Part shown: positions 1,090-9,082 of the stretch, one piece after another
Numbering within the stretch: position 1 is the first letter of the stretch
Layout of the letters: each line of letters opens with the position of its first letter
Translations under genes and position numbers: made by a program
The notes under the pieces: model-generated
Databases searched by the model: none
Told to the model about the DNA's origin: nothing
The model's input: only the letters and a program-made list of their open reading frames with translations
Virus record (IMG/VR): IMGVR_UViG_3300034072_000939
Span: 1 to 40,742 of that record
Reading direction: 5' to 3' (one strand)
Length of the DNA stretch: 40,742 nt
DNA from: a virus

Positions 1090-4000
1090 ATGAAAGCAGA
1101 TCCCGCAGGTACAGTTCGTCAGCGCGCCGATGGCTCCGTCTGGGAGAAACCCACCTCCACATCTAAGGAGTGGACCCAGGTGAAGGACGGCGTAAACTCC
1201 GTTGGTACTGCCGCCCCCAAAGGCGCCGCCCCCGACTTTGAAAAAGGTCAGGATGGCGATGCCTGGATGAAGGCGCAGGCTCAATACGACCTCGATGGCC
1301 ATAAGCCGTCGAAGGAAACCCATCCCCAGCATGTGGATATCGACGCCGAGGGCGATATCGATAAGAAGCCCGTGCTGATGTGGAAGGATGATAAGGGCAG
1401 CGATCGCCGCTCCTACACCAAGCGGTTCCATTGGAACCGTTATTCCAAGGTCCATGACGACACCAAGGGCGCCGCTGACGCCATGGCGAAGGCTCAGGAG
1501 TACCTCGCTGAGTGCTGCAAGTCCGATAGCCCCGACCGCGAAGCCGCCATGGCCGCGCTGGTGCATCTGAAGACCGGTCACCCCGTCAATAACGTGCTGG
1601 CGCTGCACCCCGAGGCCACCCACGTTGCCCGTAAGATGAAGAAGTCGGGCAATCCTGACCTCTTTAAGGGCCAGACGACCGACAAGCTGCGCGAAATCCT
1701 CACCGCGTCGATCGCTCTGCGCGACCGCACCCAGTCTTTCCACTGGAACGTGACCGGCCCGACCTTCCCGCAGCTCCATGTGCTCTTCGGCGACCAGTAC
1801 GATGACCTCGCTGACGCCGTTGACCTGCTCGCCGAGCGCATTCGCGGCTTCCAAATCGTCGTCGATGAGGTTTCGATCGAGCCTCGAGCCATGCCGGCCG
1901 ACGCTCAGGGCATGTTGGTCGAGCTGATCGCGGCCCATGAGCAGCTTTGTGAGCTTTGCGAGCAGGGTGTCGAGGCCGCTGAGGCCGAAAATGACGCCGG
2001 AACGGTCGATATCCTCGGCAAGCGGGCCGCTGACCACGACAAAGCGGCTTGGTTCCTCCGTTCGACGGCCGGGTTGCAGAAGGGAGGCTCGACGGAAGAC
2101 GTCGAGCACCCTGACAAAGCCCACTTCATGTTCGCCCACCCTCGTGGGCACGCCTACATGGCCTCGGTTCATGAGCCCGTTGTCGCTGAGCACGTCGCTT
2201 CTCGGCGTCAATCCGGTGAGGGAAGGCTCTTCAACGCCAAGCCCTCGCAGGTTAAGAAGCTCATCAAGAAGGCCGGCGTCGGTCATTTCGATGGCGAGAC
2301 CATGATGCACGCCAATGCGGCCATCATGTGCGCCGATTATCTGTCGAAGACGCCTAAGTTCGACATCGCCAACGACGGTATGGCCAAGGCAGCTGCTTGC
2401 GTGCGCAAGGCCTCCGATAAGGTCGCCCGCCAGTTCGGCCATCCTCCCTGCCCTGAGGGTATGTCGTACTGCCCGCCTGGCATCGCGATGGGTTACCTCG
2501 AGAATCTCGGGGCTGCCAAGGCGTTCCCGAAGGCTTTCGAGGACCTCAAGCGCGCCGCCGACCCGTACTCGACCGCAAACCCGAAGGAGCAGATCCGCGC
2601 TGAGATCAAGCGGGATGAGCGCGACGTGACGGACCCCGAGGACCTCAAGCGCGCTGAGATGACCGTTCGAAAGGCTTACGGCACGATCGAGGGCCGCGAG
2701 TCAGATATCCAGCGCATCCTTCAGACGCTTCAGTCAAAGAAGCACAAGATCAATAAAGGAACCCAGACATGCTCTCCGACCGAGGCCGAGAAATCCTCTC
2801 CTGTTCAGACTCTTACAACTTCAAGCGATCTGCCGACGTCAAGCTTCACGACGGCGACTGCTGTACAGAAGTCGACCACGCCTGGCCAGAACTCGCTGTC
2901 TTCAAAGGCAGCGGTGCTGGACGACGCGATCGAGAAGGGCGGCCAGTTCCTCGCACGGCTGTCCCCGGCTCGCGGGGATAATCGGGCGCGCTACGTCTAC
3001 GACAAGACGGCGTTCCTCTCGCTTGTCGAGAGCGACCACTTCGCCAACATCGTGACGCCGGGCGTGAAGTTCCACTGCCCGATCCACACGGGCGAGAAGT
3101 TCGTCGACGGCTTTGTCTCCATCGAGGATCGCGTCGGGCAGATGCTTCACGTCGCGCACGATGGGACCGGCCGCCGTGGCAGCCTCGGTATCGATCAGCT
3201 CCAGAAGATGCTCCTCGAGTACCACCAGCCCTTCCTTGAGACGGAAGGTGACTGCGCTGAGTGCGAAGGCTGCGAGGATTGCGAGGAGTGGGAGGACGAT
3301 TCGGTCAACGAGCCGTCGATCATCAAGGCCACCGACATGACGACCCACGTCGATGTCGTGAAGGCTGACAGCATCCCCGACGACTACAACAAGCCCCGCC
3401 GCATCCGTCAGGGTGAGCCCGGCTACGGCAAGAAGAAGTTTGTCGTCAACGCTCGCAACGCTCAGGGCAAGACGCGCGTGATCCGGTTTGGCGACGCCAA
3501 CATGGAAATCCGCCGCGACGATCCCGAGCGCCGCAAGAATTTCCGCAGCCGCCACGGCTGCGACACGGCAGCGGGCAAGGACATCCTCACCGCCAAGTAC
3601 TGGTCGTGTAAGCAGTGGCGCCATAAGGAAAAGGTCGTGAAGTCCTCCGTCGAGCTTGCTGACTGGGGAACCAAGCAGCCCGAGCACGAGCTTATCCGTG
3701 CGCAGGCTCAGGCTGCTTACGTCAACGCTCTTCGCCGGTCGAAGGCTGGCGAGCTTAGCGACGACGTGATGAAGGCCATGAGCGTTGCGGTTCTCAACCG
3801 CGACTACAACGAGGTCCTCAAGCTTGCCGAGGAGGACAACGAGATCGAGCCGGTGCGCAAGGCTGTCTGGACGACCGCCTATGTCAACGACCTGCCCGAC
3901 TCTGCCTTCCTCTACGTCGAGTCCGGCGGAAAGAAGGATGGTGAGGGCAAGACCACGCCCCGGTCGCTCCGTCACCTTCCTTATAAGGACAAGAACGGAA

Positions 4001-4431
4001 AGGTTGACCTCCCTCACCTCCGCAACGCTCTCGCCCGCCTCGAGGGTACCCAGATCCCCGACTCGGTGAAGGCTGGGATTAGGAAGCGCGCTCAGTCCAT
4101 GCTTGCCGATGCCACGGGCAAGAAGGTGGAGAAGGCTGAGCCCGAGGTGAGCAAGGACGAGATCAAGAAGGCCAACATGGCTGTCGCCGGTCTCGTCGAG
4201 ACCGGTAAGTCGGCGATCGACCCTCTCGACGCTTGGCTTGCGAAAGGTCTTGTGCCGACCAACGAACTTGATGAATATATCAAGGAGTCAGTTGGTGACT
4301 TCTCAGACTTCGCCGAGGACCTAGCCTTCGCCCCCGCCTCAGTCCGAAGCCAAGCCCACTACCTTCGCATGGCGAAGGGACCCCTCGCTCTCCGCGCTCG
4401 CTACGTGGACGTCAAAGGTAAGCTCTCGTGA
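1090..4431 (+). CDS. Head-module polyprotein: TopIB-like halves around a Dps domain, plus C-terminal phage modules
   Basis: A 1113-residue multidomain protein directly upstream of the portal (GTGA overlap at 4428). Residues 91-170 and 340-475 resemble the two halves of a small type IB topoisomerase. The second half has LFNAKPSQVKKLIKKAG and FGHPP followed by a SYCPP site at Y460, but the catalytic arginine of the DFRT-type motif reads GET, so activity is unlikely. Between them, residues about 197-328 form a full Dps-like four-helix domain with HWNVTGPTFPQLH (H218, H230), D245 and E249. After a Ser/Thr-rich stretch (about 560-607) come a domain with a CxxCxxCxxC acidic cluster (722-731), a small module ending RHGCD and YWSCKQW (770-843), and a module with LPDSAF, PRSLRHLP and LRNALARLEG (about 930-1003) known from phage head proteins. 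The start has only a weak ribosome site. Possibly an internal head protein; function is inferred. Around 2769-2910 another frame may be the coding one (separate entry). Confidence 0.7.
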   Translation: MKADPAGTVRQRADGSVWEKPTSTSKEWTQVKDGVNSVGTAAPKGAAPDFEKGQDGDAWMKAQAQYDLDGHKPSKETHPQHVDIDAEGDIDKKPVLMWKDDKGSDRRSYTKRFHWNRYSKVHDDTKGAADAMAKAQEYLAECCKSDSPDREAAMAALVHLKTGHPVNNVLALHPEATHVARKMKKSGNPDLFKGQTTDKLREILTASIALRDRTQSFHWNVTGPTFPQLHVLFGDQYDDLADAVDLLAERIRGFQIVVDEVSIEPRAMPADAQGMLVELIAAHEQLCELCEQGVEAAEAENDAGTVDILGKRAADHDKAAWFLRSTAGLQKGGSTEDVEHPDKAHFMFAHPRGHAYMASVHEPVVAEHVASRRQSGEGRLFNAKPSQVKKLIKKAGVGHFDGETMMHANAAIMCADYLSKTPKFDIANDGMAKAAACVRKASDKVARQFGHPPCPEGMSYCPPGIAMGYLENLGAAKAFPKAFEDLKRAADPYSTANPKEQIRAEIKRDERDVTDPEDLKRAEMTVRKAYGTIEGRESDIQRILQTLQSKKHKINKGTQTCSPTEAEKSSPVQTLTTSSDLPTSSFTTATAVQKSTTPGQNSLSSKAAVLDDAIEKGGQFLARLSPARGDNRARYVYDKTAFLSLVESDHFANIVTPGVKFHCPIHTGEKFVDGFVSIEDRVGQMLHVAHDGTGRRGSLGIDQLQKMLLEYHQPFLETEGDCAECEGCEDCEEWEDDSVNEPSIIKATDMTTHVDVVKADSIPDDYNKPRRIRQGEPGYGKKKFVVNARNAQGKTRVIRFGDANMEIRRDDPERRKNFRSRHGCDTAAGKDILTAKYWSCKQWRHKEKVVKSSVELADWGTKQPEHELIRAQAQAAYVNALRRSKAGELSDDVMKAMSVAVLNRDYNEVLKLAEEDNEIEPVRKAVWTTAYVNDLPDSAFLYVESGGKKDGEGKTTPRSLRHLPYKDKNGKVDLPHLRNALARLEGTQIPDSVKAGIRKRAQSMLADATGKKVEKAEPEVSKDEIKKANMAVAGLVETGKSAIDPLDAWLAKGLVPTNELDEYIKESVGDFSDFAEDLAFAPASVRSQAHYLRMAKGPLALRARYVDVKGKLS
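1672..2079 (+). other. Embedded Dps/ferritin-like domain (residues about 195-330 of the polyprotein)
   Basis: This segment follows the Dps pattern in order: helix A with ALRDRTQSFHWNVTG, helix B with FPQLHVLFGDQYDDLADAVD and LAERIR, helix C with MLVELIAAHEQLCEL, helix D with ILGKRAADHDKAAWFLRS. In Dps the intersubunit ferroxidase site uses two His and three acidic residues. H218, H230, D245 and E249 sit at the canonical spacings (12, 15 and 19), while the acid four residues after the second His is G234, with D235 next to it. Dps proteins bind DNA and oxidise Fe(II) with peroxide. Finding one inside a phage head-module polyprotein is unusual. Confidence 0.82.
2754..2914 (+). other. Possible out-of-frame gene start and frame switch inside the polyprotein
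   Basis: In the third frame a TAA (2754-2756) is followed by an AAAGGA ribosome site and an ATG at 2769. That frame gives a protein-like 46-codon stretch rich in C-ending codons (for example DVKLHDGDCCTEVDHAWPEL). The long frame over the same bases gives a Ser/Thr-rich string. Removing one base near 2907-2912 would join the ATG-2769 frame to the long frame, which is clearly coding again from about 2911. So this could be two genes fused by two small indels, a +1 frameshift site, or just an S/T linker with a shadow frame. GC at third positions does not settle it. Confidence 0.4.
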
Positions 4432-5885
4432 CAGACAAAACCGCCGACAGCTCTGAGACCATCGCCAAGGGCGATCTCCCTAAGGAGCTACTGAAGCCCG
4501 GCGGGGAAGTGCGCTTGGCGTCGCCTAAGGCGGCGAACCTCGACCCGATGAGCTCAATGTGGCTCACCGCCCAGTCGATGTTCCCGTCGGACATCCATCA
4601 AGGTACGGGCATCCTCTCGTATACGACGCTGCGGGCGATGTCCCGCATCCCGTATATCGCGGCGATCCTGCTGACCCGTATGAATCAGGCTTCTGACTTC
4701 GCTGTTCAGCAGCCTGATCCGTACAGCCTCGGCCATGTCATCACTCCCGATGACAAGAAGCGCGTCCTGACTCGCCGGGATAGGTCCACCATCGCTGAGA
4801 TTCAGGAGTTCATCCTGAACGGCGGTGGCACCTATTTCCCCGGTGGGTTCGAGTCGTTCCTCCGAGCGATCGTTCACGACACGCTCGTGTATGATCAGGT
4901 CAACGTGGAAAAGGTGATGAACGTGACGACCGGCAAGCCCGGCGCCTTCGTTCCCGCCGATCCGACCACGATGCGACGGAAGGCTCCCGACCGTAGCCAG
5001 ATCAAAGACATGCGCTGGGATATCCGGGACACCGGATATATCCAGGTCCTCAACAACCGCATCGTCAATGAGTTCTCGCCCGACACGATGTCATGGTGGA
5101 TCCGCAACCGCGAGACCTTCATGTATCGGAATGGCTACGGCGCTCCTGAGCTTGAGAAGGCGGTCTCCATCGTGGCCGCCCTCGTCAACGCCATCACGCA
5201 CAACACCGTCAACTACACGACGGGTATCCACTCCCAGAACCTGATCGAGGCCGGTATCATCGGCTCCGATGACCGCATGTCGACGCTTCAGCGGGTTATC
5301 GAGGTCTCCACCTCCGGTATCCGACATTCGCGTCGCACGCCGCTCTTCCAGGTTAATCCGGCGCTCCAAGAATACTTGAAGGTCCACCCTCTCGGATCGA
5401 CCAACAAGGAGATGGAGTTCTCCGAGTGGATTAACTTCCTGAAGAAGCAGCTGTGCTCTCTGTTCCAGATGGACCCCGCCGAGCTGGGCGACATCTTCGG
5501 AACGGAGAACCAGAGGACGCAGGTTGGCTCGGCTTCTCCGACTGATCGGATTATCGCCTCTAAGGAGCGTGGCCTTCGTCCGCTCATGCGGACTATCCAG
5601 CGCTGGATCAATGAGTTCCTCATTGCTCCTCACTGGCCTGGATACCGGCTCACCTTCCGAGGCTTTGATGCGGTCACGGAAGAGAAGAAGATCGAGCTGG
5701 ACCTCAAGGCGGTCTCCTCGTTCCTCTCACCGAACGAGCTTCGTCTTGAGCGCGGCCTCGAGCCCTGGGATGACCCGGTCTCGAAGCGTCCTCTCAATGC
5801 CCTCTACACCGCCTACATCCAAGATCAGCTCGCCAACCAGCAAGCTGATACGGAAGATGACGCTAAGGCTGTAGTTGGTAATTGA
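4428..5885 (+). CDS. Portal protein
   Basis: A 485-residue protein with the length, position and sequence character of a phage portal, the dodecameric ring at the capsid vertex through which DNA enters and leaves. It starts at a GTG that overlaps the stop of the previous gene (GTGA) and is followed by the prohead protease. Supporting stretches are MSRIPYIAAILLTRMNQ near the N-terminus, FMYRNGYGAPELEKAV in the middle (portal proteins often carry a GYG-SPLE-like motif here), a long central helical part, and SPNELRLERGLEPWDDP near the C-terminus, typical of the portal wing end. The last 25 residues are polar and acidic. No protease or MuF-type domain is fused to it. Confidence 0.85.
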   Translation: MTDKTADSSETIAKGDLPKELLKPGGEVRLASPKAANLDPMSSMWLTAQSMFPSDIHQGTGILSYTTLRAMSRIPYIAAILLTRMNQASDFAVQQPDPYSLGHVITPDDKKRVLTRRDRSTIAEIQEFILNGGGTYFPGGFESFLRAIVHDTLVYDQVNVEKVMNVTTGKPGAFVPADPTTMRRKAPDRSQIKDMRWDIRDTGYIQVLNNRIVNEFSPDTMSWWIRNRETFMYRNGYGAPELEKAVSIVAALVNAITHNTVNYTTGIHSQNLIEAGIIGSDDRMSTLQRVIEVSTSGIRHSRRTPLFQVNPALQEYLKVHPLGSTNKEMEFSEWINFLKKQLCSLFQMDPAELGDIFGTENQRTQVGSASPTDRIIASKERGLRPLMRTIQRWINEFLIAPHWPGYRLTFRGFDAVTEEKKIELDLKAVSSFLSPNELRLERGLEPWDDPVSKRPLNALYTAYIQDQLANQQADTEDDAKAVVGN

Positions 5886-5907: not shown

Positions 5908-5939
5908 TGTTCACGAGAGGAGTTTTCCAATCGTGAACA
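5908..5939 (+). promoter_or_regulatory. Hairpin enclosing the ribosome site and start codon of the protease gene
   Basis: TGTTCACGA (5908-5916) and TCGTGAACA (5931-5939) form a perfect 9-bp inverted repeat. The 14-base loop holds the ribosome site GAGGAG (5917-5922), and the GTG start (5933) lies in the 3' arm. As RNA this would hide the start codon; as DNA it would be a dyad operator. A 9-bp hairpin can arise by chance once or twice in a window of this size, so the argument rests on its exact placement in a 47-base intergenic gap. Confidence 0.5.
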
Positions 5940-6808
5940 CTGCTGCACAACCACAGCTTGTTAGCTTCGGCGGTCTTTCCTCCGGGTTTGACTCTTCGAT
6001 CTTTCTTGACGAGGACCGGTTCCGTCTTTGGACGCCGGCCTCGGTAACGATCGAAGGTTTTTCCAAGGGGACTAAGACCAAGCCGAGGCTTGGCCGCATT
6101 TCTGGAATCGCCACGTCTGAGGCGCCTGACGAGGATGGTGACATCGTCGATCAGGAAGGTCTCGAGTGGGATTACTTCATCGGTAAGGGCGGGCAAAAGG
6201 GCCACGGGCTGATTTTGCTTGAGCATCCCGTCGGAGTGGTCAATACCATCGGCTACCCGGTGGGCATTGAGCTGACTGAGATCAAGTCGGCGATCACGGG
6301 GCAGATGGTCAAGGCGACTAAGGTCGTCGCTGACCTCTATCTTGAAGATAAGATGGGCCGCGTCACTTACAAGAAAGCCAGAGTTATGAAGCGGGCTGGT
6401 GCCCAGCGCTCGATTGGATTTTCCATCGAGGGCGGCGTCAAGCAGCGCGTCGGGAAGCGTATCGCAAAAGGCCGCGTAAAGTGGCTTGCGGTTACCGCTG
6501 CTCCAAGAAATCATGACTCTTGGTGGGAGCCCATGATGATGTCAGCTAATGGTGCAACCATCACCAAAGCGCAGGTTGGTTATCCCATGCAGGGTGCCGG
6601 CTACGTTGGTGAGATTGCTCCATTGGTTGCGCAGTCTCTTCAAGGTGCCCAATCAATTGATCGCGAGAAATTGGTGATGCAAATCGCCAAGACCTGGTCG
6701 CAGGAACTTACCTGGTCACAGGCAGAAAGTGTTTTCGATTATATCGTTCAGTCCCTGACGGCGAAGGGCCTTCGCGTCGGACCCCAAAACAAGGCAGGAA
6801 AACCATGA
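5933..6808 (+). CDS. Prohead maturation protease (HK97/S78-like serine protease)
   Basis: A 291-residue protein between portal and scaffold, the usual place of the prohead protease that cleaves scaffold and capsid arms during maturation. The N-terminal part has SGIATSEAPDEDGDIVDQEG, typical of this fold. The likely catalytic His is H98 in LLEHP and the likely Ser is S160 in QRSIGFSIEGG, matching the His and SxGF-type Ser of this family. WLAVTAAPRN follows. The GTG start lies 10 bases after GAGGAG and inside a hairpin. The C-terminal third is unusual: residues 217-237 (YPMQGAGY, then EIAPLVAQSLQ) repeat a motif of the major capsid protein N-arm. The stop overlaps the next start (ATGA). Confidence 0.85.
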   Translation: MNTAAQPQLVSFGGLSSGFDSSIFLDEDRFRLWTPASVTIEGFSKGTKTKPRLGRISGIATSEAPDEDGDIVDQEGLEWDYFIGKGGQKGHGLILLEHPVGVVNTIGYPVGIELTEIKSAITGQMVKATKVVADLYLEDKMGRVTYKKARVMKRAGAQRSIGFSIEGGVKQRVGKRIAKGRVKWLAVTAAPRNHDSWWEPMMMSANGATITKAQVGYPMQGAGYVGEIAPLVAQSLQGAQSIDREKLVMQIAKTWSQELTWSQAESVFDYIVQSLTAKGLRVGPQNKAGKP

Positions 6809-7588: not shown

Positions 7589-9082
7589 ATGATTCCTCAG
7601 GATCTTCTCGCAGGGCTGCCGCCGGAAGGCTTTGACGCCAGCGTCGGCGAGCTTCGTAAGCTCAACCAGGCTCTCCGCTCGGCGGCGATGCTTGGCCTCC
7701 GTAAGGGTGGTGTGAACTACCCGCTCCAGGGCGTTGGCTACGACAGTGGCACGCTCCCCGGCGGCGAGTTCGCCCCGCTCGTTCCCCAGTCCATCCAGCC
7801 CATGCTGGACAACGCGACCTTCGACGATGAGCACATTGTCGCTTGGAAGCTCCTCGCCAAGACCTCGGCTTCGTCCCCGATGCACGAGTACAACGTTCGC
7901 CGCAGCTACGGCTCGGCAGCGCTGAACCCGTTCGTCCGCGAAGGTGGCGTCCCCGCCATCAGCGAGTCGTCGTTCGAGCGTAAGGTTGTCCGCGTCAAGT
8001 ACGCCGCGACCTTCCGCCAGATCACCGACGTCGCGTCGATGACCGGCATGATGCACCCGTCGCCCCAGGCGATCTCGATCGCCTCGATGGACGGCATGAT
8101 GGAACTCGTCCAGAAGATGGAGTCCTTCCTCTTCCACGGCGACTCGTCCATCAACCCGCTCGAGTACGACGGTATCTACAAGTCGATCCGCTCCGGCGCT
8201 CCGTCGAACTTCCGCGATGCCGAAGGCTCCGTGACCTCCCTCGAGGAGCTTCAGGAGATCATTGGTCGTATGACCAATCCTCCGTACTACGCGAAGCCCA
8301 CTGAGATCTGGTGCGACCACCGCGTGTGGACGAACCTCCAGAACCAGATGCTCAGCAAGTACGGCCGTATGGAGATCTCGCAGCAGCGCGACATCTACGG
8401 CGGCGTCGGCAAGCTCTTCGTCTCGACGGCTCACGGGAATATCCCCATCCTGTCGATCCCCTTCCTCTCGCACCGCGAGCACCCGATCTCGCGCCCCGAG
8501 GGCGACGGCGCTCCGGCTGTCATCGCGCCGTCCATCGCCTACCAGGCGTCGGTCACCGGCTCGAAGTTCAAGACCGCCGACGTGACGGGCAAGGACTTCC
8601 ACTACATCGTCGAAGGCATCGGCGACGAGGGCGCGGTCAACTTCGCGGCTTCGGCGGCGGTTTCGCACTCGGCGGCGGGCGGTTCCAGCCGCTTCACCAT
8701 CAACGACGCGGGCGTGCCCTCCTACGGCACGAACTCGATCCGTTACTACAACGTCTTCCGCGCTGACGTTGCGACGGGCGCTGGCGCCCCGGCTGACCAG
8801 AACGAGTACTGGTTCGTCGGCCGCTTTGCTCGCAACCTCGTTGCCTCGGGTACCCACACCCGCTTCGACGAGATCAACGAGCACCGCCCGCAGAAGTCGC
8901 CGGTGTACATCCTCACCAACCGCCGCGACTGCATGGAGTGGGTCAACTTCCTTGACCTCACCCGCCGCCCGATCACCGTGTCGCGCAGCGCCACGACCCA
9001 GTTCATGATCATGCTCTTCGGCGCGCTCAAAATGGGCGTTCCCCAGAAGCACTGGATCCTGGACAACGTCGGCTACGCTTGA
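7589..9082 (+). CDS. Major capsid protein (HK97 fold)
   Basis: A 497-residue protein after protease and scaffold, followed by a strong terminator, as expected for the most highly expressed phage gene. The sequence has the look of an HK97-type capsid protein: an N-terminal arm (1-75), an E-loop-like stretch (NPFVREGGVPAISESSFERK), a long helix with MDGMMELVQKMESFLFHGDS, a P-domain with PPYYAKPTEIWCDHRVWTNL, and a C-terminal beta-rich part ending NVGYA. The ribosome site is CAGGAG before ATG 7589, and codons are strongly C/G-ending. Residues 44-70 of the arm (YPLQGVGY, then EFAPLVPQSIQ) are shared with the protease C-terminus. Confidence 0.88.
   Translation: MIPQDLLAGLPPEGFDASVGELRKLNQALRSAAMLGLRKGGVNYPLQGVGYDSGTLPGGEFAPLVPQSIQPMLDNATFDDEHIVAWKLLAKTSASSPMHEYNVRRSYGSAALNPFVREGGVPAISESSFERKVVRVKYAATFRQITDVASMTGMMHPSPQAISIASMDGMMELVQKMESFLFHGDSSINPLEYDGIYKSIRSGAPSNFRDAEGSVTSLEELQEIIGRMTNPPYYAKPTEIWCDHRVWTNLQNQMLSKYGRMEISQQRDIYGGVGKLFVSTAHGNIPILSIPFLSHREHPISRPEGDGAPAVIAPSIAYQASVTGSKFKTADVTGKDFHYIVEGIGDEGAVNFAASAAVSHSAAGGSSRFTINDAGVPSYGTNSIRYYNVFRADVATGAGAPADQNEYWFVGRFARNLVASGTHTRFDEINEHRPQKSPVYILTNRRDCMEWVNFLDLTRRPITVSRSATTQFMIMLFGALKMGVPQKHWILDNVGYA

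Follow-up and report, generated by a model that had tools for sequence, protein, structure and literature searches.

Stand-alone Dps genes of the family treated here are known from several phages: PHROG 3636, Proteus phage Privateer, the Aeromonas LAh phages, Synechococcus S-EIV1 and S-SRM01, and the gut 'Gratiaviridae'. They encode single-domain proteins and, in the cases examined, lie away from the head genes. According to the published reading, the enzyme protects anaerobic hosts during infection (PMC8008677). The stand-alone Dps of Privateer (QIN94861) was found with virions (PMC7881722). Its gene sits among replication genes, and the protein could be carry-over. In T4 and giant phages, a removable sequence serves to load proteins into the prohead, and the prohead protease processes them (PMC5694885). 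Encapsulins probably derive from HK97-type phages and enclose ferritin-like cargo, sometimes as fusions (PMC8346489).

The window—the whole stretch of DNA that was analyzed—is a virus record of 40,742 bases. In contrast to the stand-alone phage Dps, the Dps domain of the window is part of a large protein encoded within the head module that looks like a head polyprotein. A viral contig of 101 kb (L002) carries an identical copy of the gene close to its end, and a full-length orthologue with 73–75% identity occurs in locus L003.

The multi-module protein and its Dps domain

The open reading frame at 1090..4431 on the + strand encodes a protein of 1113 residues, and its extent is supported by the L003 orthologue. 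The protein features the Dps domain at residues 195–330 (1672..2079, + strand); a phrog_7595 module at residues 764–843 (3379..3618, + strand; PHROG E-value 1.9e-10); and, at residues 917–1003 (3838..4098, + strand; 65.5% identity, E-value 6e-26), a module in common with Tsac_2860 of Thermoanaerobacterium phage THSA-485A. The gene of Tsac_2860 is the second after the large terminase in that phage, and residues 917–1003 may resemble DUF6582. The region around the phrog_7595 module (residues 756–845) is 89.8% identical to L003 with a dN/dS of 0.12; the neighborhood of this module in isolated marine phages says nothing about the head. The Dps domain has a pI of 4.5, and its flanks at residues 165–200 and 330–400 have a pI of about 9.8. 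Because of these modules and the surrounding head genes, the protein looks like a multi-module head polyprotein, which may be cleaved. Such a placement had been proposed in the first-pass annotation: its multi-module part stands, and the role in the head module, which that annotation marked as inference, is backed by fused relatives and by the proximity of portal genes. An AlphaFold model of the full-length protein built from two sequences is uninformative (pLDDT 37), though the Dps helices appear in it. An assembly artefact joining two genes is ruled out, since the fusion is intact in L003 and fusions of this type recur in many independent metagenomes. Near the left end of the window, a 15-base tandem repeat, GATTATCCATGGACC, is present in 2.4 copies (124–159).

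As judged by profile searches and structure prediction, residues 195–330 are a genuine Dps domain, as had been read from the letters alone. The Pfam family Ferritin (PF00210) is matched above its cut-off at an E-value of 1.8e-18 by the whole protein (residues 198–326) and at 3.8e-20 by the domain alone; PHROG 3636 is matched by the domain at 1.3e-20. In a phmmer search against PDB chains, the best match is 8ff9 (E-value 1.8e-17), and the matches listed are Dps-family proteins or Dps-containing chimeras. The NCBIfam Dps model is matched below its curated equivalog cut-off (43.9 vs 114 bits). The AlphaFold2 model of the domain, based on 76 aligned phage Dps sequences, has a pLDDT of 90.3 and a pTM of 0.84 and features four long helices at model residues 11–36, 42–68, 88–115, and 119–143 (window residue = model residue + 184). 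The 50 Foldseek matches listed against the PDB are all Dps-family proteins, the best being PA0962 (8ff9) with a TM-score of 0.78 and an rmsd of 2.0. The full Dps helix order that had been expected is present as regards the four bundle helices; the BC helix is missing in the model. Chance similarity is ruled out by the E-values, the fold match, purifying selection, and the occurrence of the same domain in proteins of this kind from dozens of other phages.

Compared with its L003 orthologue, the Dps domain is 93% identical with a dN/dS of 0.058, while the aligned proteins as a whole show 75% identity and a dN/dS of 0.204, and poorly conserved segments range from 0.26 to 0.49. Of ten segments compared, the domain is hence under the strongest constraint.

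The first-pass annotation had placed four of five ferroxidase ligands at canonical spacing, and this is exactly what is found: H218 (codon 1741..1743), H230 (1777..1779), D245 (1822..1824), and E249 (1834..1836; all + strand) correspond to H51, H63, D78, and E82 of Escherichia coli Dps. All four are invariant in a 76-row alignment and in 55 of 55 fused relatives; the conservation of H51 is biased upward because the sequences were partly retrieved by peptide patterns that include this first ligand, and the other three ligands are less affected. At position 67, the usual acidic ligand is replaced by G234, which is followed by the acidic D235 (codons 1789..1794, + strand). Among the 55 fused relatives, position 67 is occupied by G in 29 and by Q in 16, and an acidic residue is found at position 67 or 68 in 41. 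Since this position varies within the Dps family, the glycine weakens the case for normal activity more than the case for Dps membership. The retention of the four ligands across architectures argues that the chemistry, or at least metal binding, is kept.

The segment following E249 (1837..1914, + strand) is shortened, as judged by the alignment and the model. From E82 to helix C, it comprises 27 residues counted from E249, compared with 35–36 in most relatives—a deletion of eight residues. The BC helix contributes to the two-fold interface of Dps cages; the AlphaFold2 model shows none at this point. Because of this shortening, a standard dodecamer cannot be assumed for the window copy, and, with one ligand being non-canonical in addition, its cage and activity may be altered.

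Head-gene context and fused relatives

The gene of the Dps protein lies within the head module. Its stop overlaps the start of the portal gene (4428..5885, + strand; phrog_12, E-value 2.6e-27; PF04860 slightly below cut-off), and the gene for the head maturation (prohead) protease comes next (5933..6808, + strand; phrog_1028, E-value 3.2e-15), in the order noted previously. A 250-residue protein starting at 6805 separates the protease from the major head protein (7589..9082, + strand; phrog_752, E-value 1.3e-47). Sheath, baseplate, and other tail genes follow downstream of the head genes, in line with a contractile-tailed phage. For the major head protein, the relatives with the best coverage come from Bordetella phage PHB04, the Pseudomonas phages Jeremy and Dolphis, and Bacillus phages including Moonbeam; identities are 21–24%. 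A scan with the window portal retrieved the same lineage only; the added contigs L290 and L291 are too short upstream of the portal for a version devoid of Dps to be visible. Dps protein and protease are separate chains in the window, which thus belongs to a wider head-module Dps group and lies outside the protease-fused subset.

The C-terminal part of the protease (6536–6643) and the N-terminal part of the major head protein (7673–7798) have a motif in common (QVGYPMQGAGY...EIAPLVAQSLQ and GVNYPLQGVGY...EFAPLVPQSIQ; 45% identity over 42 residues), which is perhaps a common processing or assembly element. In the comparison of these two proteins with the Dps protein, no motif common to the latter and either of them was found.

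When 2.9 million viral contigs were searched with the Dps domain, at least 80 Dps loci were obtained: mostly stand-alone genes of about 144–174 residues and, in addition, large fusions. The counts here and below come from scans ranked by similarity and do not reflect population frequencies. After further viral scans and a genome scan, at least 61 distinct Dps-bearing reading frames of 365 residues or more were available, 55 of which were scanned together (the window, L003, and four giant reading frames being left out). Ferritin (Pfam) is matched by all 55, Peptidase_S78 by 41, and XkdF by two; the prohead protease is therefore in the same chain in 43 of 55, a total that presumes that no reading frame matches both protease families and with which the PHROGs agree. 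Other Pfam domains in these proteins are HAD phosphatase in 17 and Tudor in six. The domain order is variable: HAD-Dps-S78 (L117, L177); S78-Dps-acidic tail (L156, L158); S78-Tudor-Dps-tail (L173); XkdF-Dps (L091); DUF5824-Dps-protease (L178); and S78-...-Dps-Dps directly after the portal gene (L048). The two tandem Dps domains of the last example (L048:5986–6900) are part of a prohead-protease polyprotein of at least 1710 residues. L125 and L142 carry giant reading frames of 1766 and 2363 residues that match portal/protease profiles and Dps. The closest fused relative outside the window's own lineage is L034, with Dps at the N-terminal end of a 1413-residue protein whose gene immediately precedes that of a phrog_1028 protease.

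When 107 Dps domains are placed in a tree, six state changes are required to account for the fused copies, and well-supported branches force at least three of these; as judged by this tree, fusion or loss has therefore occurred more than once. The window and L034 are placed apart from the main fused clade, with many forks open in this short alignment. Several short Dps genes that fall within the main fused clade adjoin portal, protease, or major-head genes (L098, L108, L131, L143, L175).

Several further elements accompany these proteins. HAD phosphatase/polynucleotide-kinase-like and Tudor domains often stand beside Dps in head-protease polyproteins (L117, L177, and relatives), and a Zeta-toxin-like kinase is part of the L269 polyprotein and is encoded by the next gene in L091; together with Dps, they look like an exchangeable set of cargo domains. 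In L131 (4917–5560), a short Dps gene starts with the same stretch of ~60 bases as the XkdF-type protease gene next to it. The stretch comprises upstream bases and the N-terminal codons for VSWRFRDDSPIGA[I/M]R and may be either a head-targeting tag common to both genes or the product of a recent duplication. Short repeated motifs occur between the modules of the Dps polyproteins of L169 (KHGDHDQ[A/S]DHGN) and L152 (KYSEDQARD[E/G][H/S]GRFGSGGG), possibly as linkers or cleavage-site regions.

All fused examples stem from metagenomic contigs; 50,697 records of isolated phages give module-level or stand-alone matches only. When the fused-Dps profile was run against 84,980 genomes of bacteria and archaea, only three contigs of metagenome-assembled genomes were matched, two of them with fused-size Dps reading frames in bins labeled Actinomycetota and Betaproteobacteria; these counts are not strictly comparable with those of the viral scan because the peptide patterns differed. 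No published account of a Dps–prohead protease fusion was found in the literature covered, which mostly excludes subscription journals.

Fused and stand-alone copies also differ in their distance from the portal gene. In 50 viral records with stand-alone Dps, a PF04860 portal is found in only five, at a distance of about 38–54 kb. Where Dps is fused or extended (19 records), it is the only ferritin found; a portal match is present in 15 (some below the family cut-off) and mostly lies 0.3–3.3 kb from the Dps domain, with three at about 8, 13, and 15 kb. The genomic context rules out an ordinary stand-alone phage Dps for the window. The S78 protein in the L165 record consists of protease, Tudor, and tail and is devoid of Dps, which is encoded by a separate, distant gene; its counterparts in L158 and L173 have both domains present, in differing order. 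On the basis of this comparison of sequences, Dps behaves like a cassette that can be swapped in and out of the protease polyprotein.

Proposed role of the domain and alternatives

The reading that we favor, and regard as moderately probable, is that the phage encodes its Dps domain as head cargo that is enclosed in the procapsid, undergoes maturation cleavage, and handles iron or peroxide in company with the packaged DNA. The domain would be made within the multi-module protein, the gene of which overlaps that of the portal and precedes those of the protease and the major head protein. Enclosure in the procapsid would be brought about by fusion to the protease or by placement in the head operon—as suggested by synthesis beside portal, protease, and major head genes here and by protease fusion elsewhere. 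Since the Dps protein of the window is separate from the protease, the strongest comparative evidence reaches it by analogy, and its enclosure is suggested by operon position together with this analogy. The maturation protease would then cut the 1113-residue protein and free the Dps domain, which would remain in the head with the packaged DNA. There, the retained metal site may bind or oxidize iron and consume peroxide, thereby protecting the packaged genome; if ejected, Dps would perhaps protect the incoming DNA. The shielding of DNA and the blunting of host oxidative defense envisaged in the first-pass annotation may both be among its effects.

Among the alternatives, the one that survives best, and which we nevertheless hold to be unlikely, regards Dps as a structural part of head assembly: an oligomerizing core or scaffold that clusters copies of the protease or polyprotein in the procapsid, with metal chemistry that is incidental or serves only to stabilize the dimer. 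Dps proteins form oligomers, the domain is associated with the protease and with acidic or coiled tails in L156, L158, L160, and L173, and a non-canonical residue takes the place of one ligand in the window as in most relatives, all of which would suit such a role. However, the conservation of H51, H63, D78, and E82 in 55 of 55 fused proteins speaks for more than a scaffold, and the BC segment of the very dimer interface is shortened in the window lineage. In the L165 phage, moreover, Dps appears not to be needed for head assembly, because the protease polyprotein there is devoid of Dps and the Dps gene of the same phage is separate and distant.

Less likely still is an action of Dps in the infected cell instead of the virion, the protein being made late to guard the DNA of the phage, or its host, against iron and peroxide; the fusion would then be an expression convenience. 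The published reading of stand-alone phage Dps (PMC8008677) and the strong induction of host dps in phage YerA41 infection (PMC7354516) are in line with this role, whereas expression convenience does not account for Dps having been joined to the prohead protease repeatedly and in many different orders, and the genomic position contrasts with that of stand-alone phage Dps genes. That the domain is a degenerate, recombination-captured passenger devoid of function would agree with the non-canonical ligand and the shortened BC segment of the window lineage but is highly improbable and largely refuted by the selection analysis, the domain having the lowest dN/dS of the segments compared and four ligands that are invariant across deep divergence.

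Returning to Dps as head cargo, the fusions suggest, at the level of sequence, that the heads of some phages contain a small ferritin. A broader form of this reading, which we advance only tentatively, would be that widespread uncultured tailed phages load a mini-ferritin into the head through protease fusion or a head polyprotein, with Dps being one of several exchangeable cargoes, through which the next cell may receive a means of handling iron or protecting DNA.

Comparison with known systems

Like bacterial Dps, for which the nearest structure is PA0962 of Pseudomonas aeruginosa (8ff9), the domain of the window features a four-helix bundle, the residues H51/H63/D78/E82, and a match to PF00210. 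Unlike bacterial Dps of about 150–170 residues, it is embedded in a head-module protein of 1113 residues, carries G at position 67, and does not reach the NCBIfam Dps cut-offs; its BC segment is eight residues shorter than in most phage relatives. Polyproteins with an HK97-type prohead protease (Peptidase_S78) or XkdF represent the same gene module: the protease is in the same chain in 43 of the 55 others but is encoded by a separate gene, starting at 5933, in the window.

The proposed route resembles that of the internal head or ejection proteins of T4 and giant phages in that cargo is directed to the prohead and then undergoes processing by the protease there; the part of PMC5694885 considered here describes no Dps or ferritin as such cargo, whereas the present case would be a fused or head-protein cargo. 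Phage Dps has so far been read as a helper of host stress tolerance, and the recurrent protease fusion would place it in the virion, where the iron content of the particle or its peroxide detoxification would become directly testable. As the fusions indicate, the protease polyprotein may offer a natural position from which enzymes can be brought into the phage head as cargo.

If this model is right, the likeness to encapsulins lies in the working: an HK97-fold shell would surround a ferritin-family protein, giving a phage-side parallel to ferritin-loaded encapsulins. Unlike an encapsulin system, the phage of the window carries portal, protease, major head protein, sheath, and baseplate genes, its cargo is of the Dps type, and loading is proposed to occur by fusion or as part of a polyprotein and not by a C-terminal targeting peptide. 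By analogy, the window case would thus be a phage-side counterpart of encapsulins in its working and not a member of the encapsulin family.
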